Of a DNA stretch of 40,579 bases, positions 4,398-37,987 are shown one piece after another. The translations under genes were made by a program, and so were the position numbers. The DNA is from Candidatus Methylomirabilis sp. (GTDB lineage Bacteria > Oederibacteriota > PGYV01 > DYJU01). The notes beneath the pieces are model-generated. The model had not been told where the DNA came from. It worked only from the letters and a program-made list of their open reading frames with translations, and did not search any database. The stretch is from NCBI GenBank assembly GCA_020722985.1, contig DYJU01000012.1, positions 1 through 40,579 on the forward strand, written 5' to 3'. Every line of letters starts with the position of its first letter. The stretch's first letter is position 1.

Positions 4398-5279
4398 TTA
4401 ATTTTTTTCTAAAAATTTTTTTAATTTTTTAATTTTATTTTCGGCATAATTTTTCCATACAGTATCTGGATATATTTCTAACAATGATTGATATATTTCA
4501 TTAGCAAGTTCATACTCACCTGATTTAAAATTCGCTTCTGCCAGTCCAAGCATTGCTTCTTCTGAAAAGGAAGAAGTTGTTTTTAAAATTTTTTGAAAGG
4601 TATCTTTGGCTTTTTCATAATCTTTCTTCTTTATAAAAATCATCCCTTTATATAAATTAGCAAGAGAAAGCAATGCTTCATTATTTTCTTTCTTTATAAC
4701 TCTGTCATAATATTCTATGGCTTTATCAAAATCACCTTTTTCAGCATAAATATGCCCGGAATAAATTGCTGACCAGTTATAAAACCAGAAATCACTATTG
4801 TATTTTCGCAAAATATCATTGAATTTATTTAACGCTTCAGAATAATTTGCATTTTGTTTATAAATAAGAGCTGCGTTGAATATTGCTAAAATTATATATT
4901 TACCATCCGGAAATTTTTGAATATATGCCTCATAAGCTTTTACCGCATTTATATACTGCCCCATTTTTGTTCTTATTTTAGCTATATAAAAAAAGGCTTC
5001 CTCAGCATAAATATTATCTTTAAAATTAAAGATTATTTTTTTATATTCTTCTATTGCTTTTTCATTTTCTCCCCTTGCTTCATATATTTTTGCAGTTATA
5101 AAATGAGCAGACAAATCCCAATCACTTCCAGGGTAAACCTTCTTTATTTTAAGGCAAATTTTAATGGCTTCTTCATATTTCCCTTTTTGATATAAACTTT
5201 CTGCCTGATTTATTAAATCATCAGAGATTACAGGAAGGATAAAAAAAAATAAAAAACAAAAAAAAATTTTATTCCGCAT
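4398..5279 (-). CDS. Exported TPR-repeat protein (BamD/YbgF-like)
   Basis: A 293-residue protein with an N-terminal signal peptide ending near PVIS. The rest consists of tandem tetratricopeptide helices, for example YQKGKYEEAIKICLKI, GENEKAIEEYKKI and GDFDKAIEYYDRVI. Repeats with the spacing of BamD/YbgF-type periplasmic scaffolds occur about seven times. No enzymatic domain is visible, so a protein-protein scaffold role in the envelope is inferred. The ATG lies 11 bases inside the 3' end of the upstream TPR gene, implying translational coupling. The stop codon is followed 13 bases later by mutS. Confidence 0.8.
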   Translation of the reverse strand: MRNKIFFCFLFFFILPVISDDLINQAESLYQKGKYEEAIKICLKIKKVYPGSDWDLSAHFITAKIYEARGENEKAIEEYKKIIFNFKDNIYAEEAFFYIAKIRTKMGQYINAVKAYEAYIQKFPDGKYIILAIFNAALIYKQNANYSEALNKFNDILRKYNSDFWFYNWSAIYSGHIYAEKGDFDKAIEYYDRVIKKENNEALLSLANLYKGMIFIKKKDYEKAKDTFQKILKTTSSFSEEAMLGLAEANFKSGEYELANEIYQSLLEIYPDTVWKNYAENKIKKLKKFLEKN

Positions 5280-6357
5280 AAACTTTATTTTCTATTTCTT
5301 TTATATTTTTCAATGATTTAATTCTTTCTTCTGCCTGATGGACATAATCTTCTTTTGAAAAATATTCATATATAACTTTATTATATGCCTCTTTAGCATT
5401 TTTATAATCGCCTGCTAATTTATAAGTATCACCAATATGCATTGCTGCCATTGGAGCCCATTCTGTATCCTTAAATTTATATTTTATAAGTTTATATTCT
5501 TTTATTGCGCTTTTATATCTGTGGGTTTGCGCATAGGTTGATGCCAGTTGAAATCTTGCCTGTATCTCCCATAAAGTTCCGGGATAATATCTCATAACAT
5601 TTTTATAAATTACCTCTGTTCTTTTAAAATTTTCCTGTTTCATATAAATTATCGCTAATCTAAAATAAGCCCTTATGGCTTCTTCTTTTCCTTTTGATTT
5701 ACGAATAATTTCTTTGTATATTTCAATTGCATAAGGCCATTTTTCTAATTTTTCATAACAACCTGCCAATCTATATGTCGCTTCAGTTGTCAATGAAAAA
5801 CCAGGTTTTTCCGCAAGAACTTTTTGATATTCTACAATTGCTTTATCATAATCACGATTATATTCATAAGCATTGGCTAAAGCATAACGAATATCATAAA
5901 GTTGTTTGGATGTAGGATAATTTTGTATTATTCTTGCCCAGATTTCTGCTGCTCCTTCATAATCTTCTATATCATAATATTTTTTCCCTTCTTTAAATAA
6001 ATCCAGAACTTCTTTTTCCATCTCTTCTTTTGTTTTTTCTTTTTCCTGAATTGATATTGGTTCTTTAAACATTGCTTCTTTTTCAATAACGGAAGTGGGA
6101 GTATAAGTTGGGGTTGGAAGTATTTTTTTCCCTTCTAAAATTTCTTTTCTTTCTTCTTCTTTTGCTGCTTCTTGCATTGCTGGTAAAAAATTATCTTCTG
6201 GCAATGTTTCAATATCAGGAACATTTTTTAAATCTTCATTGGCATTAGATACATTTATTCTATTATTATCCCACGCAAAAGGATCTGGTTCATTTTGTGC
6301 TAAAATATTGAATAAAAAAACAAGAAAAATAATTAAAATAAATGATATGTTTCTCAT
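5269..6357 (-). CDS. Exported TPR-repeat protein with Thr-Pro linker
   Basis: A 362-residue protein. The signal peptide ends near FNILA/Q. It is followed by an acidic, low-complexity stretch with LPTPTYTPT around residue 80 and a Glu/Lys-rich segment. From about residue 110 there are five to six TPR units, such as YDIEDYEGAAEIWARII and YNRDYDKAIVEYQKVL. The arrangement matches outer-membrane-assembly or TolPal-associated TPR proteins. Partners are unknown. It is the first gene of the TPR-TPR-mutS operon. The ATG is preceded by AGGAGTG, and a TTGACA-type promoter lies upstream. Confidence 0.8.
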   Translation of the reverse strand: MRNISFILIIFLVFLFNILAQNEPDPFAWDNNRINVSNANEDLKNVPDIETLPEDNFLPAMQEAAKEEERKEILEGKKILPTPTYTPTSVIEKEAMFKEPISIQEKEKTKEEMEKEVLDLFKEGKKYYDIEDYEGAAEIWARIIQNYPTSKQLYDIRYALANAYEYNRDYDKAIVEYQKVLAEKPGFSLTTEATYRLAGCYEKLEKWPYAIEIYKEIIRKSKGKEEAIRAYFRLAIIYMKQENFKRTEVIYKNVMRYYPGTLWEIQARFQLASTYAQTHRYKSAIKEYKLIKYKFKDTEWAPMAAMHIGDTYKLAGDYKNAKEAYNKVIYEYFSKEDYVHQAEERIKSLKNIKEIENKVYAE

Positions 6358-11882: not shown

Positions 11883-12170
11883 TTAAATTATTTTTTTTGC
11901 TCTATTATTGGATTTATATATATATACTAATACTTCCGCAATAAGTTTGTATAGTTCAGGTGGTATCTCCTGCCCCAAATCAAGTTTTGATAATATTTCA
12001 ATTAGATCTGTATCTTCATAAACAGGTATATCATTTTTTCTAGCAAGTTCAATTATTTTTTCAGCAAGAACGCCTTTACCTTTAGCAACAATTTTAGGTG
12101 CGTTATCTAAATCTTTATCATAATGTAAAGCAACTGCTTTCGGTTTGTTTTTAGGTAATTTTTTTTCCAT
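11883..12170 (-). CDS. flhX: FlhB C-terminal-domain paralog (FlhX/YlqH type)
   Basis: A 95-residue protein corresponding only to the cytoplasmic domain of FlhB downstream of its autocleavage site. KAVALHYDKDLDNAPKIVAK and EIPPELYKLIAEVLVYIY closely match the same region of the full-length FlhB in this window. The export-gate membrane domain and the NP(T/Q)H cleavage motif are absent. In known cases such proteins can partly stand in for the cleaved FlhB fragment in export-specificity control. It follows the second FliK-like gene by 19 bases, the same arrangement as ylqG-ylqH in Bacillus. AAGGAA precedes the ATG. Confidence 0.9.
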   Translation of the reverse strand: MEKKLPKNKPKAVALHYDKDLDNAPKIVAKGKGVLAEKIIELARKNDIPVYEDTDLIEILSKLDLGQEIPPELYKLIAEVLVYIYKSNNRAKKII

Positions 12171-12189
12171 TTTATCATTCCTTAATTGT

Positions 12190-14742
12190 TTAAGCTTTTA
12201 AATCTATCCTGCCAATATTAATATAACCATCGCCTAATTCTTCTGATTGCTTATCAAGATCGTTTTCAACTATAATTGCAAAATTTTTTATTTTGTAATT
12301 CATTTCATCAACGCTGTGTAAAAATTCTTCTTTATTTTTGTTTAAAATTTGTTTTACCTTTTCATTTTCCGTCCGAACTATACATTCAATATCGTTCTTA
12401 TGAATAAACATTGAAACTTTTACATTACCGAGATTTGATGTATTCAGTAAAAATACTATATTCAAAGGCTCCGTTGAATCTATTTCCCGTTTTAAACTAC
12501 CTTTTTTATACCATACCTGTATTTCACCATTAAAAAATTTGTTGTTTATAAATACTGGCAATTGAGTATATAACATGTCAAACGCTAATGGCTTTTGATT
12601 AATAAATTGTAAAGCATTTAAATTTGTTAATAAATCATCTATCCCTCTTTTTAAATTATTTATTATTTCTTTATGTTCTATATTGTATTTATTAATGTCT
12701 ATCTTATTAATTAAATCTCCCAATTTTAATAATTTACTCTTTAAATTATCCTTTAATTCATTAGTTAAAGTTTTCGTATTATTTATTGTATTATTTTCAT
12801 TTTTCAAAATATTTAAAGATTTATCTTTTAAAGTATTGGTTACTGTTATATTTGGGGGATTCATAGCATCTGTATTATTGGTCAAATTATTTATATTTGC
12901 AGTATTTTGTTTTAAATCTGGTTGAAGTAAATTTTTTATTTTTGCTTCTAAATTTATACCGCTTTTTTGAATAAAATTAAATATCTGTTTTTTTATATCA
13001 TTTTGATTTAAAATATTTTCATCAGTTGATATAGCTATTTTATTAAAAATATTTTTAATATCATTTAAATTTTTAAATAAATTATTAATTTCTGAATTAT
13101 TTTTTTCTGAAATAAAATTTTTTTCAAATTTATCAACATTTATTAAAAAATATTCAATATTCTGATTTAATTTCATTCCATTCTGAAAATATTTTTGCAT
13201 TATATCAATAAAATTATTATTTTCCATTAGTAAATTTCTGGATTTTAAAAAAACGATTGATTCTATGGTAGATTCAATATCAATAAAATTTAAGATATTA
13301 TTTTGATTATTCGCATTAAAAATTTTATCATCTTTCAAAATATTCAATTCGGATAACTTATTTACTAATGTTTTTAAATTATTATGAATATCAAGCAATT
13401 CAACCGGCTTAAATTCGGATTTATCAATATCAAAATTAAAATTTTTAATATGTTCATTAATTGCAGTTAATTCATTTTTAAATTGTAAGATATTATTTTT
13501 ATTTGATGAATCTTTTATATAAAAGTTTAAATTTTTAAATAAATCATTTGATAATTTATTTAAAATTAGTACAAAATTTAAGGCATCCTTTATACTTGTC
13601 TGAATATTGGTATGATTTGTAGAAAAAATATTTTGTTTTAAATTAAAAAAATTATTTTTTAACTCATTAACTATTTTAACTCCATTATCATTTAATATGT
13701 TAAATAGTTCAGCCTGATTTTCTTTTAAAATATTAACTGACTGTTGATTATCTTTTTGTGTTATTAAAATATTTCTTATATTATTTAAAAATTGCATCAT
13801 ATCCTGACTTATCTTTTTATTTATTGATACTTGATTTGTAAAATTATTTGATATATTTTTTATAGTGTTAAAAAAATTATCAATGGATATCTTTATTGTA
13901 TTGTCACTGGTTTGAATATTAACTTTAATATTTTTAAAATTATTAAAAGAATTAATAATATTGTTAATATTATCTTTTTCTGAACTTTTAAATTCAAATA
14001 TCAAAGAATCATTATCTATTAAAAATTTAATATCTGGGATACCTTCGCTTATAATTTTACTTATATTTAAAAAATTAAAAAGACGTGTTGTTGTATCTTT
14101 AAAATTTGTATATACAATGTTTACGTTTTTGGGAGAAATTAATGTATCTACCTCTTTTAAAAATTTTATAACATTATCTGAAATTATATTTTTTGCTAAA
14201 TCCTGATTGGTAATATTTAATGCCCTTATATCTATTCCTTTTTTGGTAAAATAATTAATTAATTTATCTGATACTTCAAAAATATTTTCTTTGTTTACTG
14301 GTAATCCATAATTAATAAGTTTTTGTGCAATATATAAATTCTGTTCATTAATAGGAATATTATTTGATTTTAAAATATTAATATAATTTTCTGTTTTTAA
14401 TAATAAAGCGTTATTTGCATTTTCTAATTTTGCAAATGTAATTTCATCTGGATTCAACAAATCTGTCATTTCATTTAATATCTTCATCTGAATTTTATCA
14501 TTTATCTGGGTTACAACAACATTGATAATATCGCCTTTTGACATATTAAAATTTTCCGGGACTTGAGAAATTATATTAAATCCTTTAAAATTTATTATGG
14601 CTTTGCCTTCATTAGAAAAAAGTTCAATAATACGTCCCTTTAATACATCTCCATTTTTTACAGACGAAAAAAAATCCTGAACTTTTTTATCAGTTGATAA
14701 TAACAGTTCTAAAATATTACCATTTATTCCCTGTATAACCAT
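12190..14742 (-). CDS. Second FliK-like flagellar hook-length/export-switch protein
   Basis: An 850-residue Asn/Ile/Lys-rich protein. The N-terminus (about 1-85) looks like a small beta domain (DVLKGRIIELFSNEGKAIIN). A long helical low-complexity middle follows. The last 150 residues match the FliK C-terminal (Flg_hook) pattern: LNTSNLGNVKVSMFIHKNDI, then a helical segment ending in YKIKNFAIIV. FliK proteins are usually about 400 residues, so this one is large. It is encoded with FlhX, just as FliK acts on FlhB, and has its own sigma-28 type promoter. A role in late substrate control is inference. AAGGATA precedes the ATG. Confidence 0.75.
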   Translation of the reverse strand: MVIQGINGNILELLLSTDKKVQDFFSSVKNGDVLKGRIIELFSNEGKAIINFKGFNIISQVPENFNMSKGDIINVVVTQINDKIQMKILNEMTDLLNPDEITFAKLENANNALLLKTENYINILKSNNIPINEQNLYIAQKLINYGLPVNKENIFEVSDKLINYFTKKGIDIRALNITNQDLAKNIISDNVIKFLKEVDTLISPKNVNIVYTNFKDTTTRLFNFLNISKIISEGIPDIKFLIDNDSLIFEFKSSEKDNINNIINSFNNFKNIKVNIQTSDNTIKISIDNFFNTIKNISNNFTNQVSINKKISQDMMQFLNNIRNILITQKDNQQSVNILKENQAELFNILNDNGVKIVNELKNNFFNLKQNIFSTNHTNIQTSIKDALNFVLILNKLSNDLFKNLNFYIKDSSNKNNILQFKNELTAINEHIKNFNFDIDKSEFKPVELLDIHNNLKTLVNKLSELNILKDDKIFNANNQNNILNFIDIESTIESIVFLKSRNLLMENNNFIDIMQKYFQNGMKLNQNIEYFLINVDKFEKNFISEKNNSEINNLFKNLNDIKNIFNKIAISTDENILNQNDIKKQIFNFIQKSGINLEAKIKNLLQPDLKQNTANINNLTNNTDAMNPPNITVTNTLKDKSLNILKNENNTINNTKTLTNELKDNLKSKLLKLGDLINKIDINKYNIEHKEIINNLKRGIDDLLTNLNALQFINQKPLAFDMLYTQLPVFINNKFFNGEIQVWYKKGSLKREIDSTEPLNIVFLLNTSNLGNVKVSMFIHKNDIECIVRTENEKVKQILNKNKEEFLHSVDEMNYKIKNFAIIVENDLDKQSEELGDGYINIGRIDLKA

Positions 14743-14770
14743 AAAAATATCCTTTTTTTATTTAATTATT

Positions 14771-14797
14771 ATATCGGATGCAATATAAAAAACTTTA
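14771..14797 (-). promoter_or_regulatory. Sigma-28 (FliA/SigD) promoter of the fliK-like/flhX operon
   Basis: On the minus strand TAAAGTTT (14790-14797) matches the sigma-28 -35 box exactly. After 11 bases comes TCCGATAT (14771-14778), against GCCGATA(A/T). It equals the SigD rule TAAA-N15-GCCGATAT with one mismatch. It lies about 28 bases before the ATG at 14742, inside the 65-base gap after the DUF6115-like gene. Confidence 0.75.
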
Positions 14798-14807
14798 ATA
14801 AAGAAAT

Positions 14808-15365
14808 TTATTTTTGCTGTTTAAGATTTTTAATCAATTCTATTTCGCCTTTTGATAAACCAGTAATCTTTGATATTTCTGACACCGATAATCCGTTTTC
14901 TAGAAGATTTTTTATATTTTCATATTTATCTTTTTCATTTATTTTTTCGTTTTCTTTCTCATTAATCATAAATTTGGATACTTTAATTTTTTCAATTTTT
15001 TTTGTATCTTTCTTTATTTTATTATCGTTAACAAGAGAAGTATTTTCAACAATAGCGTTTACTTTGTTTTCATTTTGTTTCATCAAATTAACACGTTCAA
15101 TAAGGTATTTTATCTCACTTATTTTTATATCTGCTTCTTTAATTGATTTCTTAATCTGTTCATTTTTTTCATCAATTTTTTTTAAAATTTCATCAGAAAA
15201 ATTTTTAAATTCTTCTATCATCAATTTTAAGTTTTGTTGAAACTCCAATAATTCAATACCCTTCATATCTTCATTTACAATATTATCTTCTTTTTTATTT
15301 TTTTTTAAAATTAAAAATAATACTATAATAATCAATAAAATATTTATTATCAGAATAATATTCAT
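14808..15365 (-). CDS. Membrane-anchored coiled-coil protein with C-terminal HTH (DUF6115-like)
   Basis: A 185-residue protein. Residues 2-21 are a single transmembrane helix (NIILIINILLIIIVLFLIL). A Lys/Glu coiled coil occupies about 40-95, then a charged linker. The C-terminus, ENGLSVSEISKITGLSKGEI, is a helix-turn-helix-like motif typical of DUF6115 proteins found beside flagellar sigma-factor genes in Firmicutes. It may be analogous to SwrB, a membrane protein that promotes flagellar assembly in Bacillus; this is inference. It starts two bases after the preceding gene's stop with no clear ribosome binding site, so translation is probably coupled. Confidence 0.7.
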   Translation of the reverse strand: MNIILIINILLIIIVLFLILKKNKKEDNIVNEDMKGIELLEFQQNLKLMIEEFKNFSDEILKKIDEKNEQIKKSIKEADIKISEIKYLIERVNLMKQNENKVNAIVENTSLVNDNKIKKDTKKIEKIKVSKFMINEKENEKINEKDKYENIKNLLENGLSVSEISKITGLSKGEIELIKNLKQQK

Positions 15366-15705: not shown

Positions 15706-17358
15706 TTACCCCGAATATGGCAATACTTGTATTTCCCCGTTTTTTTCTACAAATGTGCAATATTTCAATTCATCGGTAATAGTTCTGCTTGCTTTATTTA
15801 TTGTTACTTTTACTCCTGTATATACCATCCCAAGACAATTTACTTTACCACGCTTTGTCGTTTGTATTTCTTTTGCTTTTGCATCCAATTTACTCTTTAC
15901 TTCTTCCCATTTTTTCTGGTCTGTCATTAATTTAAATTGAGTTCGTGTTAATTTAGCCAGTAAATCTCTTTTATCTGGTGGTAATTGCCCTCCTGATTTT
16001 TGCTGTAAATCCTTTAGAAATAAAATGCCTTTCTTAGTTTTATCCAGCTGATCTTCTATATTTTTTAATTCTGTAGTTGCCTTTTGCATTTCTTCTCTCA
16101 TCTTCGGGGTTTCACCAATTGATATTTCTGTTGGTGTTGCCATTTTAGCGCCTATTTCTTTTGCAGATACTTCATAAGCTGCTGCTATTGTTCCACCTAC
16201 CATTAGTCCTTTTGCCCCCATAACAATAATCTTTCCACCTGATATAAGTGTAGAATGCATTGCTGCTTCATTAACTATTATATTTTTTTCTGTTTCCACA
16301 TATGCATTCCTTATATATTTAGTTGTTATATCATCCTGTGCAATTACCCTTGCTTTTTTTCCAACTATACCACCTTTTGCGGTAACCTTTCCACCAGCAA
16401 TAATTTCTGTACCATCAGCCACTTCATCAATAATTACATCCTCTCCTGCTTTTATTTTAAATTCTCCAACATTGCCATGAATAATTACAGAACCTACAAA
16501 ATCAATGTTCCCGATAGAAAGATCAACATCACCATTGATTTCATATATAGCAAGAACTTCTAATTTATTGTTCTTAAAAATAACCTGCCCATCGTTTTCA
16601 GCAACATATACATCAGGATCATCAGCAGAAGCAACTACTCCTTTCCCAATAATAAATTTTACATCTTTACCAGGTTCTGCCTTAATTTCTTTCCCTGTTA
16701 CAGTTCTTCCATTGATCCCATTTGTTGGCGGAACTTTCTTTGCCAGAACCTGACCTTTTTTAACATTTAAAATACTTTTTACATTTCTATAATCAACTTG
16801 ATCTTTTTCTTGGGTTTCTGCTGGAGATTGTTCTTCTTTACTTTGTTCGGATTCAAATAATAATTCTAATTTTGCATCTGACCCGTTTTGAACGAATTGC
16901 CCTTCTGCAACAACATCTTCTATTGCTTCTAAAAATATTGTAGGATCATCTTTCGCCTTCAACCCTTTTTCTACAAGTTTTCTTATCACATCATCCTTGA
17001 TACCAAATACAATACCATGTTCAATAAGCGATGCTTTAGCAATTTCCTCTGTTATTTCTTTACCACCACCCTGTGGCGGAACAATTGTCATTTCAGCAAA
17101 CATCTCATCAGAAGATATTTTTACAAAAATTTGCCCATCTTTAACTTCAATTTTTTCTTTTGTTATTAAAATAGGCTTACCCGTGGATTCCTTAACCGCT
17201 CTTTGCACAGATTCTATATTTATGTCCTGAATATTCAAGCGTTTTATTTCTTCCATCACTTTATCTAATTCAACTGCTTTCCCTTTACCTTTGGGCGGAT
17301 AAACCGTTAAATATGTTCCGCCATCAGATTCTGTTGTTATTGTTGAATATCCATCCAT
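15706..17358 (-). CDS. fapA: FapA-family (DUF342) protein
   Basis: A 550-residue DUF342/FapA protein, a family tied to flagellar assembly and cell polarity. The N-terminal part (about 1-170) carries repeated small domains. The central part has the family's Gly-rich right-handed beta-helix repeats (VKKGQVLAKKVPPTNGINGR, AGEDVIIDEVADGTEIIAGG, SGGKIIVMGAKGLMVGGTIA). A coiled coil lies near 415-490 (MREEMQKATTELKNIEDQLD), and a closing beta domain contains MVYTGVKVTINKA. It begins 12 bases after fliA, with a GGAGG-like site before the ATG. The biochemical role remains unclear even in known members. Confidence 0.9.
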   Translation of the reverse strand: MDGYSTITTESDGGTYLTVYPPKGKGKAVELDKVMEEIKRLNIQDINIESVQRAVKESTGKPILITKEKIEVKDGQIFVKISSDEMFAEMTIVPPQGGGKEITEEIAKASLIEHGIVFGIKDDVIRKLVEKGLKAKDDPTIFLEAIEDVVAEGQFVQNGSDAKLELLFESEQSKEEQSPAETQEKDQVDYRNVKSILNVKKGQVLAKKVPPTNGINGRTVTGKEIKAEPGKDVKFIIGKGVVASADDPDVYVAENDGQVIFKNNKLEVLAIYEINGDVDLSIGNIDFVGSVIIHGNVGEFKIKAGEDVIIDEVADGTEIIAGGKVTAKGGIVGKKARVIAQDDITTKYIRNAYVETEKNIIVNEAAMHSTLISGGKIIVMGAKGLMVGGTIAAAYEVSAKEIGAKMATPTEISIGETPKMREEMQKATTELKNIEDQLDKTKKGILFLKDLQQKSGGQLPPDKRDLLAKLTRTQFKLMTDQKKWEEVKSKLDAKAKEIQTTKRGKVNCLGMVYTGVKVTINKASRTITDELKYCTFVEKNGEIQVLPYSG

Positions 17359-17370
17359 AATTAATCCTCC

Positions 17371-18129
17371 TTATTTTTCAATTTTATAAAATTTACTTCT
17401 TAATTTTAGAATTATTTTAGTATGTATCTGGCAAACTCTTGATTCTGAAATATTAAGTGCTTTTCCTATTTCTTTTAATGTCAAACTATCCCAATAATAC
17501 ATCTCTAATATAATTCTTTCTTCTTTTTCAAGTTTCTCTATAAAATCTATCAATATTTTCTTCTTTTCATCATCTTCAAATTTTTCTAAAATACCATCTT
17601 CTTTTCCAATTAAATTTATTAAACCTTTTTCTTCTCCCTCACTATTAATTATCGCATCTTCTAATGGCACTAAAACTATTCCTTTTACCTTAAATAATAT
17701 ATCATAAAATTCTTCTTTTGTCATCTTTAATTCTTTTATTATTTCATTATCATTTGCCTGTCTACCTAATTCAGATTCTAATTTTTGATAAGCCCTCTCA
17801 ATTGTTTTTACTTTATGTCTTAAACTTCTTGGCAAAATATCATATTTACGTAATGTATCATATATTGCCCCTCTAATTCTTTTAGAAGCAAATGTTTCAA
17901 ATTTTATATTTCTATTAATATCAAACCGTTCTATTGCTTCAATTAAACCTATGATGCCTTCTATATTTAAGTCTTCCTTTTCATTATTCCTGACATCATC
18001 CGGTAAATAAGCAACTATTTTTTCTACCTGATATTTAACCAATGGCAGATAGTAATTTATAATTTCTTCTCTTGCTTTTTCATCTTTATCTTTTTTATAT
18101 TTTTGCCAAATTTCATTTATTTTGTCCAT
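17371..18129 (-). CDS. fliA: Flagellar sigma factor FliA/SigD (sigma-28)
   Basis: A 252-residue sigma factor that directs RNA polymerase to late flagellar promoters. Region 2 includes LVKYQVEKIVAYLP and EDLNIEGIIGLIEAIERFD, then KFETFASKRIRGAIYDTLRK. Region 3 has LGRQANDNEIIKELKM. Region 4 ends in a helix-turn-helix (LTLKEIGKALNISESRVCQI). Length and order match the FliA/WhiG/SigD group. Only 21 bases separate it from the preceding gene. They contain no Shine-Dalgarno sequence, but do contain a GCCGATAT box ending six bases before the ATG. The gene probably responds to its own product and may be made from a leaderless mRNA. Confidence 0.95.
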   Translation of the reverse strand: MDKINEIWQKYKKDKDEKAREEIINYYLPLVKYQVEKIVAYLPDDVRNNEKEDLNIEGIIGLIEAIERFDINRNIKFETFASKRIRGAIYDTLRKYDILPRSLRHKVKTIERAYQKLESELGRQANDNEIIKELKMTKEEFYDILFKVKGIVLVPLEDAIINSEGEEKGLINLIGKEDGILEKFEDDEKKKILIDFIEKLEKEERIILEMYYWDSLTLKEIGKALNISESRVCQIHTKIILKLRSKFYKIEK

Positions 18130-23716: not shown

Positions 23717-24820
23717 TCATGTTGCAAATTGCTCATTATCTTTTATTTTTTGCTGTTTATTTCCTTCTTTAATTTTACCTTTTGCCTGATAAACAAACGC
23801 AAGTATTTCAGCCACCACCTGAAAAAGTTCAGCCGGGATTTCCCACCCTACTTCAAGTTTAAAAAGAGCTCTTGCAACTGGCGGATTTTCAACTATTATA
23901 ATACTATTTTCTCTTGCAATTTGTTTTATTCTTTCAGCCATATAATTTACACCCTTGGCAACTACTTTAGGAGCGGCATCTACATTTTCTTCATATTTTA
24001 ATGCAACGGCTATATGCTGCGGATTTGTAATAACAACATCTGCATGGGGAATTTCCGATATCATTCTTCTTCTTGCCATTTCTCTCTGTATATTTCTTAT
24101 TCTTGCCTTAATTAAAGGGTCCCCTTCCATCTGTTTTAATTCATCTTTTATTTCCTGTTTTGTCATTTTTATGCTATCTTCAAATTCCCATTTTTGATAA
24201 ATATAATCAATTATTGAAAACACAATTAAAGCAACTATTATCTTCATACTCAAAGAATAAACAGAAGATATGGTAAAAATAAATAGTGTATTTATGTCCA
24301 TAAGCGGCGTAATAAAAATATCCTGCATAATTTTTTTTATAACATTATATAAAATATAAGCAATTATTGATATTTTAAAAAAAATCTTAAAAAGTTCAAT
24401 AAGTGAACGTCTTGAAAAAACTCTTTTAAAACCTTTAGCCGGATTTATATTATCAAATTTGGGTTTAACAGGTTCAAAAGTAACAAAAAAACCAATCTGT
24501 AAAATATTTGAAATTATTCCCGCTAAAAATACAATTATAAATATTGGCAATAAAATCAGTATAAATTTTATTATAATAAAGAAAACTAATTGTCCTATTG
24601 TATCAGGAGTTAAATCAATAACAAAAATATTTTTCCAGAAATAAACAGATATATTTTTTATTCCGTCAAGAATATAGTTACCAAAAATTTTTAAAATTAT
24701 AAATACAACTAATAAATTTATAACTGAATTTATTTCTATACTTCTTGCAACCTGACCTTTTTTTCTTACTTCTTCGCGTTTCTTAGGTGTTGCCGATTCT
24801 GTTCTACCTGGTTCTGCCAT
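23717..24820 (-). CDS. flhB: Flagellar export switch protein FlhB
   Basis: A 367-residue FlhB. Four membrane helices (about 30-215) form part of the export gate, and a cytoplasmic domain controls the change from rod/hook to filament substrates. The N-terminus GRTESATPKKREEVRKKGQV is typical. The usual autocleavage motif NPTH reads NPQH here (N266-H269): Asn and Pro are intact and Thr is replaced by Gln. The downstream part (IAVALKYEENVDAAPKVVAK) is closely echoed by the FlhX gene at 11883-12170. It follows fliR by 19 bases. Confidence 0.97.
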   Translation of the reverse strand: MAEPGRTESATPKKREEVRKKGQVARSIEINSVINLLVVFIILKIFGNYILDGIKNISVYFWKNIFVIDLTPDTIGQLVFFIIIKFILILLPIFIIVFLAGIISNILQIGFFVTFEPVKPKFDNINPAKGFKRVFSRRSLIELFKIFFKISIIAYILYNVIKKIMQDIFITPLMDINTLFIFTISSVYSLSMKIIVALIVFSIIDYIYQKWEFEDSIKMTKQEIKDELKQMEGDPLIKARIRNIQREMARRRMISEIPHADVVITNPQHIAVALKYEENVDAAPKVVAKGVNYMAERIKQIARENSIIIVENPPVARALFKLEVGWEIPAELFQVVAEILAFVYQAKGKIKEGNKQQKIKDNEQFAT

Positions 24821-35597: not shown

Positions 35598-37913
35598 TTA
35601 AGCTAAATAATTAAGGTAACTGAAGCTTTCATTATATATATCGGTTGAATCAACAGTTTCTTGAATATTATTATTAATAACCGCTGCTCCTTCCCATTCT
35701 TTATATATATTCTTTGAGGCATCTGAAAGATTATTACCGATATTCTGATTCATCATTAATATTTGAAAATCTTTAACGTCAAAACCTGAATTATTTAAAT
35801 AATTTTTTAATTCTACAATGTTTGCCTTTAATATATCTTTAACCTCATTACTTAAAACCTGTATATTTGCTGATATTTCTTTGCCTTTATTTTCTATTTT
35901 TATTAATACAGGACCTAAATTTTCTGGTTTCAAATGAATTTTTATTTCAATTTTTTTATTAATTGATAAATTTTCAGGAATTTTTTCAACTATCTGCCTA
36001 ATAACTATGTCCTGTTTTATTTTAAACCCTGTTTCAATAATGTCTTTGAAAAAGTTAATCTTATCCGATTTATCAGCAATATAATTTTTATTTTTAATAA
36101 AATCTGAAATATTATTCATTATAAAAGAAATTTCGTCTTTATTTTTATATATCATATCCTGTTTTAAAGATAAATTGTTTAATTCAGATTTAATATTAAT
36201 TTGTTTATTAAATCCTGCCGCCAGATTCTGCTGGATAATATTGTATTCTACCTTATTATTATTCAAATCCGCTTGATTAATATTATTATTATTTACTGAC
36301 GTTTGAACTATTGTTAATTTGCTTATTTCATTATTATTAGAAATTTTAGATGTATTTACTGTGCTTATTATTGGCTGTAAGATTTGCAACTTACCATCAG
36401 TTTTGTCTATCGGTGAAAGATTAATAAGCAAAACTCCATCCGGTGTTATTGTTGATGTTCTGGTTGTATTTGGTTGATATACATATTCAATCTTCCTATA
36501 AATTTGCATTTCGCCATTTAATTCTTTTAATAATTTAAAAATCTTTAAAACAGAATTTTTTAATTCATTAAATAAGGTTCCACTTTGATATGAACGGCTA
36601 TTATTTTCATTTTCAAAACCAGAATTAATTATCTGGTGCAAATTTGTGTTTACTGCTGGCAAACTTTCAGTCTCTATTTTATTATTTATAATTGCTACAA
36701 AATTATTCTGCGCACTTTCCTTATTATTATAATTATATATAATATTCTGAATAGCGGGTAATATACTTATTATTTCTCTTATTATAATTTCCGCATTTTC
36801 TTTAATATTTTGATTTATATTTATATCATCCGCCAAACCTAACCTTATTTTATTGATTAAATTGATAATATTGTCAATTTTAATATTCAAATTATCAATA
36901 ACAACATCAAGGTTATTCTTATAAGTGATATTCTTGCCATTTTTTATAGTATCTATAAAAATTTTTATGTCAGATATAGTATTTTTAATGTTATCTAAAA
37001 TTTTTCTTGCAGCATCCGTTATTACTGTCATATTTTGAGTAGATTTTAAATTTATGTTATCTGCATTTATTTCCTTTGAAATATTTATTTTAACATTATC
37101 TAATTGGGAATTATTTGGTATATTATTATCTAATAAAGATTGATTTAAAACAATTTTTTGAGAATTAATTACACTATCTTTTGTATCTAAAACTGCAATG
37201 GAATTGTTTTGATTTATTTCTCTTATGCCAATATTTCCATTGTCAATGGTTTGTGATTTTGTTATTACTGGAATATTCTGTAAAACAGTATTTTTAATAA
37301 CAGCATTTTCTTTACCAGTTTCAACTAAATTTGTATTAATTGTGAAAGGAGTAGATGAGGAAATTTTATTTAAAATATTTATTTCATCTTTATTTATAGA
37401 ATAATTATTCTGAACTGTAAAATTATTTGTTTTTAGTTGTGGATTGGATTTTTCAATATTTAATTGCTGAATGTCTTGTAAACTTGGAATTGAATCCTCT
37501 ATATCATTTGATGCAGTAGAAATTTCAATTGCACTGATTTTTAGTGCTTTTATTAATAAATCTTTCTCCTGTGGATTTAAATTACTTGAAAAAGATATTT
37601 CATTAATTACATTATTATTTTCTAATTCAATATCAGAAATAAAAGGAATATTTTTAATTTCTCCTGTTATTACAAAAAATGCCACTGCCTGATTAAGTGA
37701 ATTATATAATTTTTCATTATTTAAAATATTTTCTATAATTTTTATTTTTTCCTCTGAAAAATTTTTATTTAATAATTCTGTTATTAATTGTTGGAAATCA
37801 GAAGAACCATTTAGTTGAATAGAATTATTATTATCAACCAATTTAGTATTTGTTGCTGCTAAAGATAGAATTTGTGCGTAATCTGAATTTATATTCACAT
37901 TCAAATTGACCAC
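35598..37913 (-). CDS. fliK: Flagellar hook-length control protein FliK
   Basis: A 771-residue Asn/Ile-rich ruler protein. The long, low-complexity N-terminal two thirds would be the unfolded ruler. The Flg_hook domain near the C-terminus is clear: [20 protein letters not shown], then [20 protein letters not shown] and [12 protein letters not shown]. It stops hook growth by acting on FlhB. Enteric FliK has about 400 residues, so this is nearly double. I chose GTG at 37913, five bases after AGGAGG. The frame extends 21 codons upstream, but those codons lie across the leader hairpin. It is the first gene of the operon to flgE. Confidence 0.88.
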
Positions 37914-37931
37914 AATTTCCTCCTGAATTTT

Positions 37932-37965
37932 CCGAAGGCCCCCCTTGCGGTCCGGGCCTTTTCGG
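37932..37965 (-). promoter_or_regulatory. fliK: GC-rich hairpin with GGA internal loop, fliK leader
   Basis: On the minus strand CCGAA pairs with TTCGG and GGCCC with GGGCC. A GGA/G internal loop follows, then CC-GCAA-GG, a GNRA tetraloop. CGGAAAA follows and the AGGAGG site begins eight bases after the stem. The transcript predicted from the upstream promoter starts about 16 bases before it, so it occupies most of the 5' leader. Confidence 0.6.
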
Positions 37966-37987
37966 TTACTTCTCAATTTTTATATAA

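Follow-up and report, generated by a model that had tools for sequence, protein, structure and literature searches.

Results

Genomic context of fliK2 and flhX

The window, by which we mean the whole stretch of 40,579 nt analysed here, encodes a FliK-like protein (FliK2) and, directly behind it, a stand-alone paralogue of the FlhB C-terminal domain (FlhX) (Table 1). The gene order on the minus strand is fliA, fapA, a small ORF, a DUF2802-like gene, fliK2 and flhX. Beyond flhX lie zapA and pheT, in the opposite orientation. An initial annotation of the window had described the FliK-like protein and the FlhB paralogue, and both ORFs were found as described, with matches to Flg_hook and Bac_export_2. 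Two Flg_hook proteins are encoded in the whole genome, FliK2 and the canonical FliK, and there is one full FlhB. The presence of both canonical proteins in the window was confirmed, with the ORF of canonical FliK giving 792 aa from its TTG start and not the 771 residues first reported.

Table 1 Features of the fliK2-flhX locus and canonical counterparts in the window.
Feature	Position	Strand	Description and basis
fliK2	12190..14742	(-)	850 aa FliK-like protein; OB-fold, long variable middle, T3S4/FliK switch domain and tail
OB-fold-like N-terminal domain, FliK2 residues about 21-90	14473..14682	(-)	AlphaFold2 and weak Foldseek matches; without Pfam family
Flg_hook / T3S4 substrate-specificity switch domain, FliK2 residues 761-823	12274..12462	(-)	Pfam, 2rrl, 5cuk
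FliK2 C-terminal tail IDLKA (last five residues)	12193..12207	(-)	Pattern hydrophobic-[DN]-hydrophobic-x-[AVG]
flhX, 95 aa stand-alone FlhB C-terminal-domain paralogue without NPxH	11883..12170	(-)	Bac_export_2, flhB_rel
Predicted sigma-28 promoter TAAAGTTT-N11-TCCGATAT, inside operon	14771..14797	(-)	Scan and 8/8 order members
DUF2802-like gene, immediately 5' of fliK2	14808..15365	(-)	Operon context
fapA	15706..17358	(-)	Between fliA and the small ORF
fliA, sigma-28 factor expected to read the fliK2 promoter	17371..18129	(-)	FliA_WhiG E 1.4e-65, above cut-off
Canonical FlhB, full length, cleavage motif NPQH	23717..24820	(-)	
Canonical FliK, 792 aa from TTG, tail LNYLA	35598..37976	(-)	

Three further observations concern the surroundings of the pair. 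At residue 266 the window FlhB reads NPQH where NPTH is customary; among the relatives, NPNH occurs once and the rest have NPTH. In the order, the DUF2802-like gene stands 5' of fliK2, and a Poribacteria genome (L118 3852-4388) holds what looks like a similar gene. No Flagellin_N match was found in the genome (G000, 84% complete), in which export apparatus genes are present; missing contigs are the probable cause.

A sigma-28 promoter upstream of fliK2

The predicted promoter ends 28 nt before the fliK2 ATG at 14742. The motif TAAAGTTT-N10..12-CCGATAT has two occurrences in the 2.13 Mb genome, the second of which precedes flgM-flgN-flgK, a classical sigma-28 operon. When three mismatches were allowed in the genome scan, the number of matches was about that of the controls, that is, background, and just perfect or near-perfect sites were used. 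A second sigma-28-like site, with one mismatch, lies ~270 nt before the flgM site (L166 1501-1527; G000:C40:24784-24810) and precedes a 75-aa ORF resembling a small regulator.

Seven same-order relatives had the fliK2 start present, and in all of them the box T[AC]AAG-N14-[AT]CCGATAT starts 66-101 nt 5' of fliK2. The box is thus kept in 8/8 order members, including the window, from five families. In six of these loci, 159 kb with both strands counted, the order-type box had no occurrence other than the one before fliK2. In a named genome collection, CCGATA[TA] occurred within 150 nt of the start at 43 of the 64 fliK2 loci with sufficient upstream DNA, compared with 5 of 381 control ORF starts at the same loci; these counts include related species, which are not independent, and so overstate the number of separate events. 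An A-rich -35 element was present at the correct distance from CCGATA[TA] in the fliK2 loci of this collection. Paenibacillaceae contributed 38 of the 43 positives (38 of 53 fliK2 genes, counted by hand), and their fliK2 neighbourhood, read from the sequences as rnhB-fliK2-flhX-yraN, is unrelated to that of the window. The independence of the box occurrences rests on these differing lineages and neighbourhoods. In a phylum sampled around a Geobacteraceae genome, boxes of the TCAGTTTT...ACCGATAA type were found at a few loci. No sigma-28 box was found before the pair in 26 Nitrospirota loci, nor in most other Bacilli.

A chance promoter was rejected on account of the rarity of the motif in the genome scan, its conservation in the order and its excess over the control starts. 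A conserved upstream promoter of the TAAAGTTT-N11-GCCGATAA type is a mark of sigma-28 (class 3) genes, and fliK2 has it. Judged from the sequences, the sigma-28 promoter before fliK2 is real, as the initial annotation had proposed: it has one other exact copy in the genome and it recurs in several lineages. Since the box is present in the order and in Paenibacillaceae, and absent from Nitrospirota and most Bacilli, the predicted late control of the pair is recurrent yet lineage-specific.

That the pair is under sigma-28 control was the wording of the first description; the promoter stands, but purely late control is doubtful. The DUF2802-like gene and fliK2 lie 65 nt apart, a gap in which no terminator-like site could be identified on the minus strand. 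Because no terminator separates fliK2 from the fliA-fapA genes, expression of fliK2-flhX is unlikely to be confined to the late stage. The probable pattern is read-through out of the fliA-fapA genes with a late boost for fliK2-flhX, and a late function of the pair is plausible.

The same arrangement fits a pair that serves as a general export factor at all stages, with the sigma-28 box merely a boost in some lineages: fliK2 is contiguous with fliA, fapA and the DUF2802-like gene, and many lineages have no box. We regard this explanation as unlikely, given that the order keeps the box without exception and that the box occurs independently at another locus, in Paenibacillaceae, both of which argue that timing matters there.

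FlhX is a stand-alone relative of the FlhB C-terminal domain

FlhX matched the Pfam family Bac_export_2 at the C-terminal end only (262-335, E 9.3e-21). Its match to the NCBIfam family flhB_rel (TIGR00789) had an E-value of 5.9e-32 and 109.7 bits, below the cut-off of 117.35 bits, which was passed in 0/41 genomes; by the cut-off rule, the protein is FlhX-like and not a formal member of TIGR00789. Its homology is to the FlhB C-terminal domain alone, without the membrane part. The alignment to FlhB begins just past the NPxH cleavage motif, approximately at the start of the autocleaved FlhB-CC. FlhX lacks the two hallmarks of FlhB, the NPxH autocleavage motif and the membrane domain, both of which the window FlhB has.

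In Salmonella, FlhB residues A286, P287, A341 and L344 form the early-substrate pocket (PMC13344023). The corresponding FlhX residues, A24, P25, A78 and L81, were invariant in 13 FlhX sequences. In a tree of 27 FlhX and 12 FlhB proteins, from which Campylobacterota were left out, the two groups formed separate lineages (support 100/99). A recent local duplication of FlhB as the origin of FlhX was rejected on this split. Phylogenetically, FlhX is a separate old lineage and, since it stands apart from FlhB, not a local duplicate.

A pocket kept invariant after loss of both the cleavage site and the membrane anchor, together with a late promoter, could mean that FlhX is a late cytoplasmic decoy. 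It would bind left-over rod and hook substrates and end their competition at the gate, and FliK2 would regulate or displace it. This is improbable to about the same degree as a general export factor. A sink seems redundant, as early substrates cease docking after the loss of FlhB-CC (PMC13344023), and, going by the title of Wand 2006, FlhX of Helicobacter is able to act at the gate.

FliK2 combines an OB-like domain with a FliK-type switch domain

The C-terminus of FliK2 has the Flg_hook/T3S4 switch domain of the FliK family. The Pfam Flg_hook match (residues 761-823, E 2.4e-6) scored 27.7 bits, just below the 29.8 cut-off, and 24 of 27 family members had a Flg_hook match. When the AlphaFold model of the C-terminus was searched with Foldseek, the top-ranking solved structure was 5cuk, the PscP switch domain (probability 1.00, E 1.5e-3), and FliK 2rrl was found at probability 0.97. 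A sequence search with the family profile likewise retrieved 2rrl (E 7e-5). A structural match to FliK Flg_hook, on which the initial annotation had staked its proposal, was thus obtained. A phmmer search of the C-terminus against the PDB gave chance matches to viral glycoproteins alone and was superseded by the profile and fold searches. The proline of the canonical P-x-x-L-G motif was absent from all FliK2 rows (0/27), whereas the window's canonical FliK (KPENLG) and Salmonella FliK (HPEELG) have it.

The last five residues follow the pattern hydrophobic-[DN]-hydrophobic-x-[AVG] in 92 of 95 upstream proteins, and one of the three exceptions is an unrelated gene. Beside IDLKA in the window, VDIRV, VDFRA and LNVRG occur elsewhere, all similar to the LNYLA and VDLLA tails of canonical FliK. 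In Salmonella, it is the final five residues of FliK that have been proposed to engage FlhB-CC (PMC13344023).

The N-terminus was modelled by AlphaFold2 as a beta-barrel, with a pLDDT of about 87-95 over residues 21-90. Foldseek returned S1, RuvA and cold-shock OB folds, all with weak E-values, and no Pfam family covers the domain. A profile of it had 0 matches among seven canonical FliK entries, two of which are the window's own and several of which are truncated at locus ends. Between the conserved pieces at both ends, the family alignment has a hypervariable middle. The total length ranges from 203 aa (L044) to 1582 aa (L070) across the phylum, and the shortest forms (203-220 aa) consist of the N-terminal domain, the switch domain and the tail, without the middle. 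FliK2 as a decaying gene was rejected, as its ORF is open and both terminal domains are conserved in many genomes.

The five loci with FliK2 of just 203-220 aa (L044, L130 and L048-L050) belong to one family of the phylum. Located 3' of FlhX in these loci are large proteins that have fibronectin-type-III domains and whose PorV/TraF-like and FlgD-Ig-like matches are weak; an FlgE-like gene follows.

The first description called FliK2 ruler-like and considered a second substrate switch, in which FliK2 would be secreted, measure a structure and flip FlhB or FlhX again late. The switch domain and tail are FliK-like, and 850 aa would be long enough in the window protein. In addition, the N-terminal 36 residues (108 bp) of Cj0849c drove secretion of a reporter by a Yersinia flagellar system (PMC2764114); from its neighbouring locus number, we take Cj0849c to be the FliK-like partner that goes with flhX (Cj0848c) in Campylobacter. 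FliK is marked by a secreted N-terminal ruler whose length is tied to that of the hook. For FliK2 the ruler-like label is not supported: a folded OB-like domain occupies the position of the FliK N-terminus, and the wide length range includes proteins with no middle at all. Because the middle is missing in some relatives, FliK2 is probably neither a hook ruler by design nor a second ruler, and we consider a second ruler-type switch very unlikely.

Co-occurrence of fliK2 and flhX

In all loci of the window's own phylum with FlhX and sufficient sequence, a FliK2-type gene lies directly upstream. In three other samples, FlhX immediately follows FliK2 in 12/14, 17/26 and 21/24 testable loci, with group labels being approximate; the group called Bacilli also contains named genomes of several phyla (L203-L208), and its counts are approximate. 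The co-occurrence survey called for at the outset thus bears out the pairing throughout the testable own-phylum loci and in most testable loci elsewhere. The two genes usually overlap by 4 nt in Paenibacillaceae, which suggests translational coupling. FlhX was not found in some flagellated relatives (G014, G019, G024, G028 and G040).

Two loci depart from the usual arrangement. In L068 (5962-6258), flhX directly follows a seryl-tRNA-synthetase-like gene without FliK2 alongside, and the FliK2 N-terminal domain of this genome is at another place (G047:C403). In L131, small, foreign-looking ORFs (4419-5926) that resemble a toxin-antitoxin pair split fliK2 from flhX, apparently having been inserted into the operon.

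A small partner encoded directly behind, often overlapping, and the secretion-competent N-terminus of Cj0849c (PMC2764114) would suit a FliK2 that is itself a late exported protein with FlhX as its dedicated docking factor or chaperone, but this is the least probable explanation, as FlhX resembles the gate domain and not known export chaperones, and FliK2 is hypervariable in its length and middle.

Discussion

Proposed role of the pair

Recent work on Salmonella, in which alone FlhB-CC ejection is reported, provides the setting: early substrates depend on FlhB-CC, and its loss coincides with the onset of sigma-28 gene expression (PMC13344023). The fliK2-flhX genes form a conserved pair paralogous to the switch partners FliK and FlhB. 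We tentatively favour, without holding it to be probable, the reading that FlhX replaces the ejected FlhB-CC and that FliK2 controls FlhX. FliK would eject FlhB-CC from the gate, and sigma-28 would turn active. More FlhX would then be made and fill in for the lost FlhB-CC at the vacated position. FliK2 would bind FlhX in the way FliK binds FlhB-CC, by means of the switch domain and the tail, and would set if and when FlhX occupies the gate, so that export specificity might be kept or retuned after hook completion. We infer the binding of FliK2 to FlhX, and the site of action. A sigma-28-driven replacement for FlhB-CC with a FliK-type partner that needs no measurement would be best read as a module acting after the switch.

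The promoter in several lineages, the pairing of the genes, the switch domain, the conserved tail, the retained pocket and the old FlhX lineage speak for this replacement of FlhB-CC, and so do the timing of FlhB-CC loss in Salmonella and the spare-part role that the title of Wand 2006 gives to Helicobacter HP1575. Other points count against it. Once the switch is made, FlhX would restore a site for early substrates, and this could do harm if nothing held it in check. Late control cannot be a requirement for the basic function of the pair, because many lineages with the pair, including many Bacilli and Nitrospirota, have no box. FlhX is also missing from some flagellated relatives, and read-through from the upstream operon is likely.

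The broader form of the proposal is a post-hook layer of export control, in which FlhX made under sigma-28 would be fitted to gates whose FlhB-CC is gone, with a non-ruler OB-fold/T3S4 protein in control, and the 'irreversible' switch would be tuned or partly reset in several phyla. This extension is possible but doubtful. Its interest lies in the Salmonella work, in which FliK ejects the FlhB tail as sigma-28 genes start; the pair would supply a new copy of that tail. Whether the switch is final can be put to a direct test in Paenibacillus or Geobacter species that grow in culture.

Comparison with known systems

The injectisome switch proteins (PscP and relatives) resemble FliK2 in their C-terminal fold, the best-matching solved structure being that of the PscP switch domain. 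These proteins act on SctU and carry rulers, whereas FliK2 needs no middle region. With Salmonella FliK and FlhB-CC, the pair shares a T3S4 switch domain and a last-five tail facing an FlhB-CC with the same pocket. FliK2 differs from Salmonella FliK in its OB-like N-terminus and in lacking the proline of P-x-x-L-G and, it seems, an obligatory ruler; unlike Salmonella FlhB, FlhX has neither a membrane anchor nor an autocleavage motif.

Bacillus has a pair whose names we presume to be ylqG/ylqH, for which no literature was found. The literature searched, which omits most subscription journals, yielded no function for the fliK2-flhX pair. Helicobacter FlhX (HP1575) is likewise a stand-alone FlhB-CC domain and, to judge by the title of Wand 2006, 'acts as a spare part' for a deleted FlhB-CC. 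The window FlhX, by contrast, comes with a FliK-like partner and stands behind a sigma-28 box.

The closest counterpart is flhX-fliK, a named gene pair in Campylobacterota (PMC9321776), where flhX is Cj0848c in C. jejuni (PMC9321776, PMC4894983). In Nitratiruptor and others, an FlhB-CC paralogue is encoded beside a FliK-type protein, as in the window (PMC9321776, PMC4894983), but the window pair lies within the fliA-fapA operon and has its own late promoter. No analysis of a sigma-28 promoter, OB-domain or tail was found in the Campylobacterota flhX-fliK literature searched, which excludes most subscription journals. The gene pair itself is known and widespread; its late control and domain make-up appear to be undescribed. 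To these known systems, the present analysis adds a conserved late promoter, an OB-like domain, ruler-free minimal forms, a shared tail and a retained pocket.
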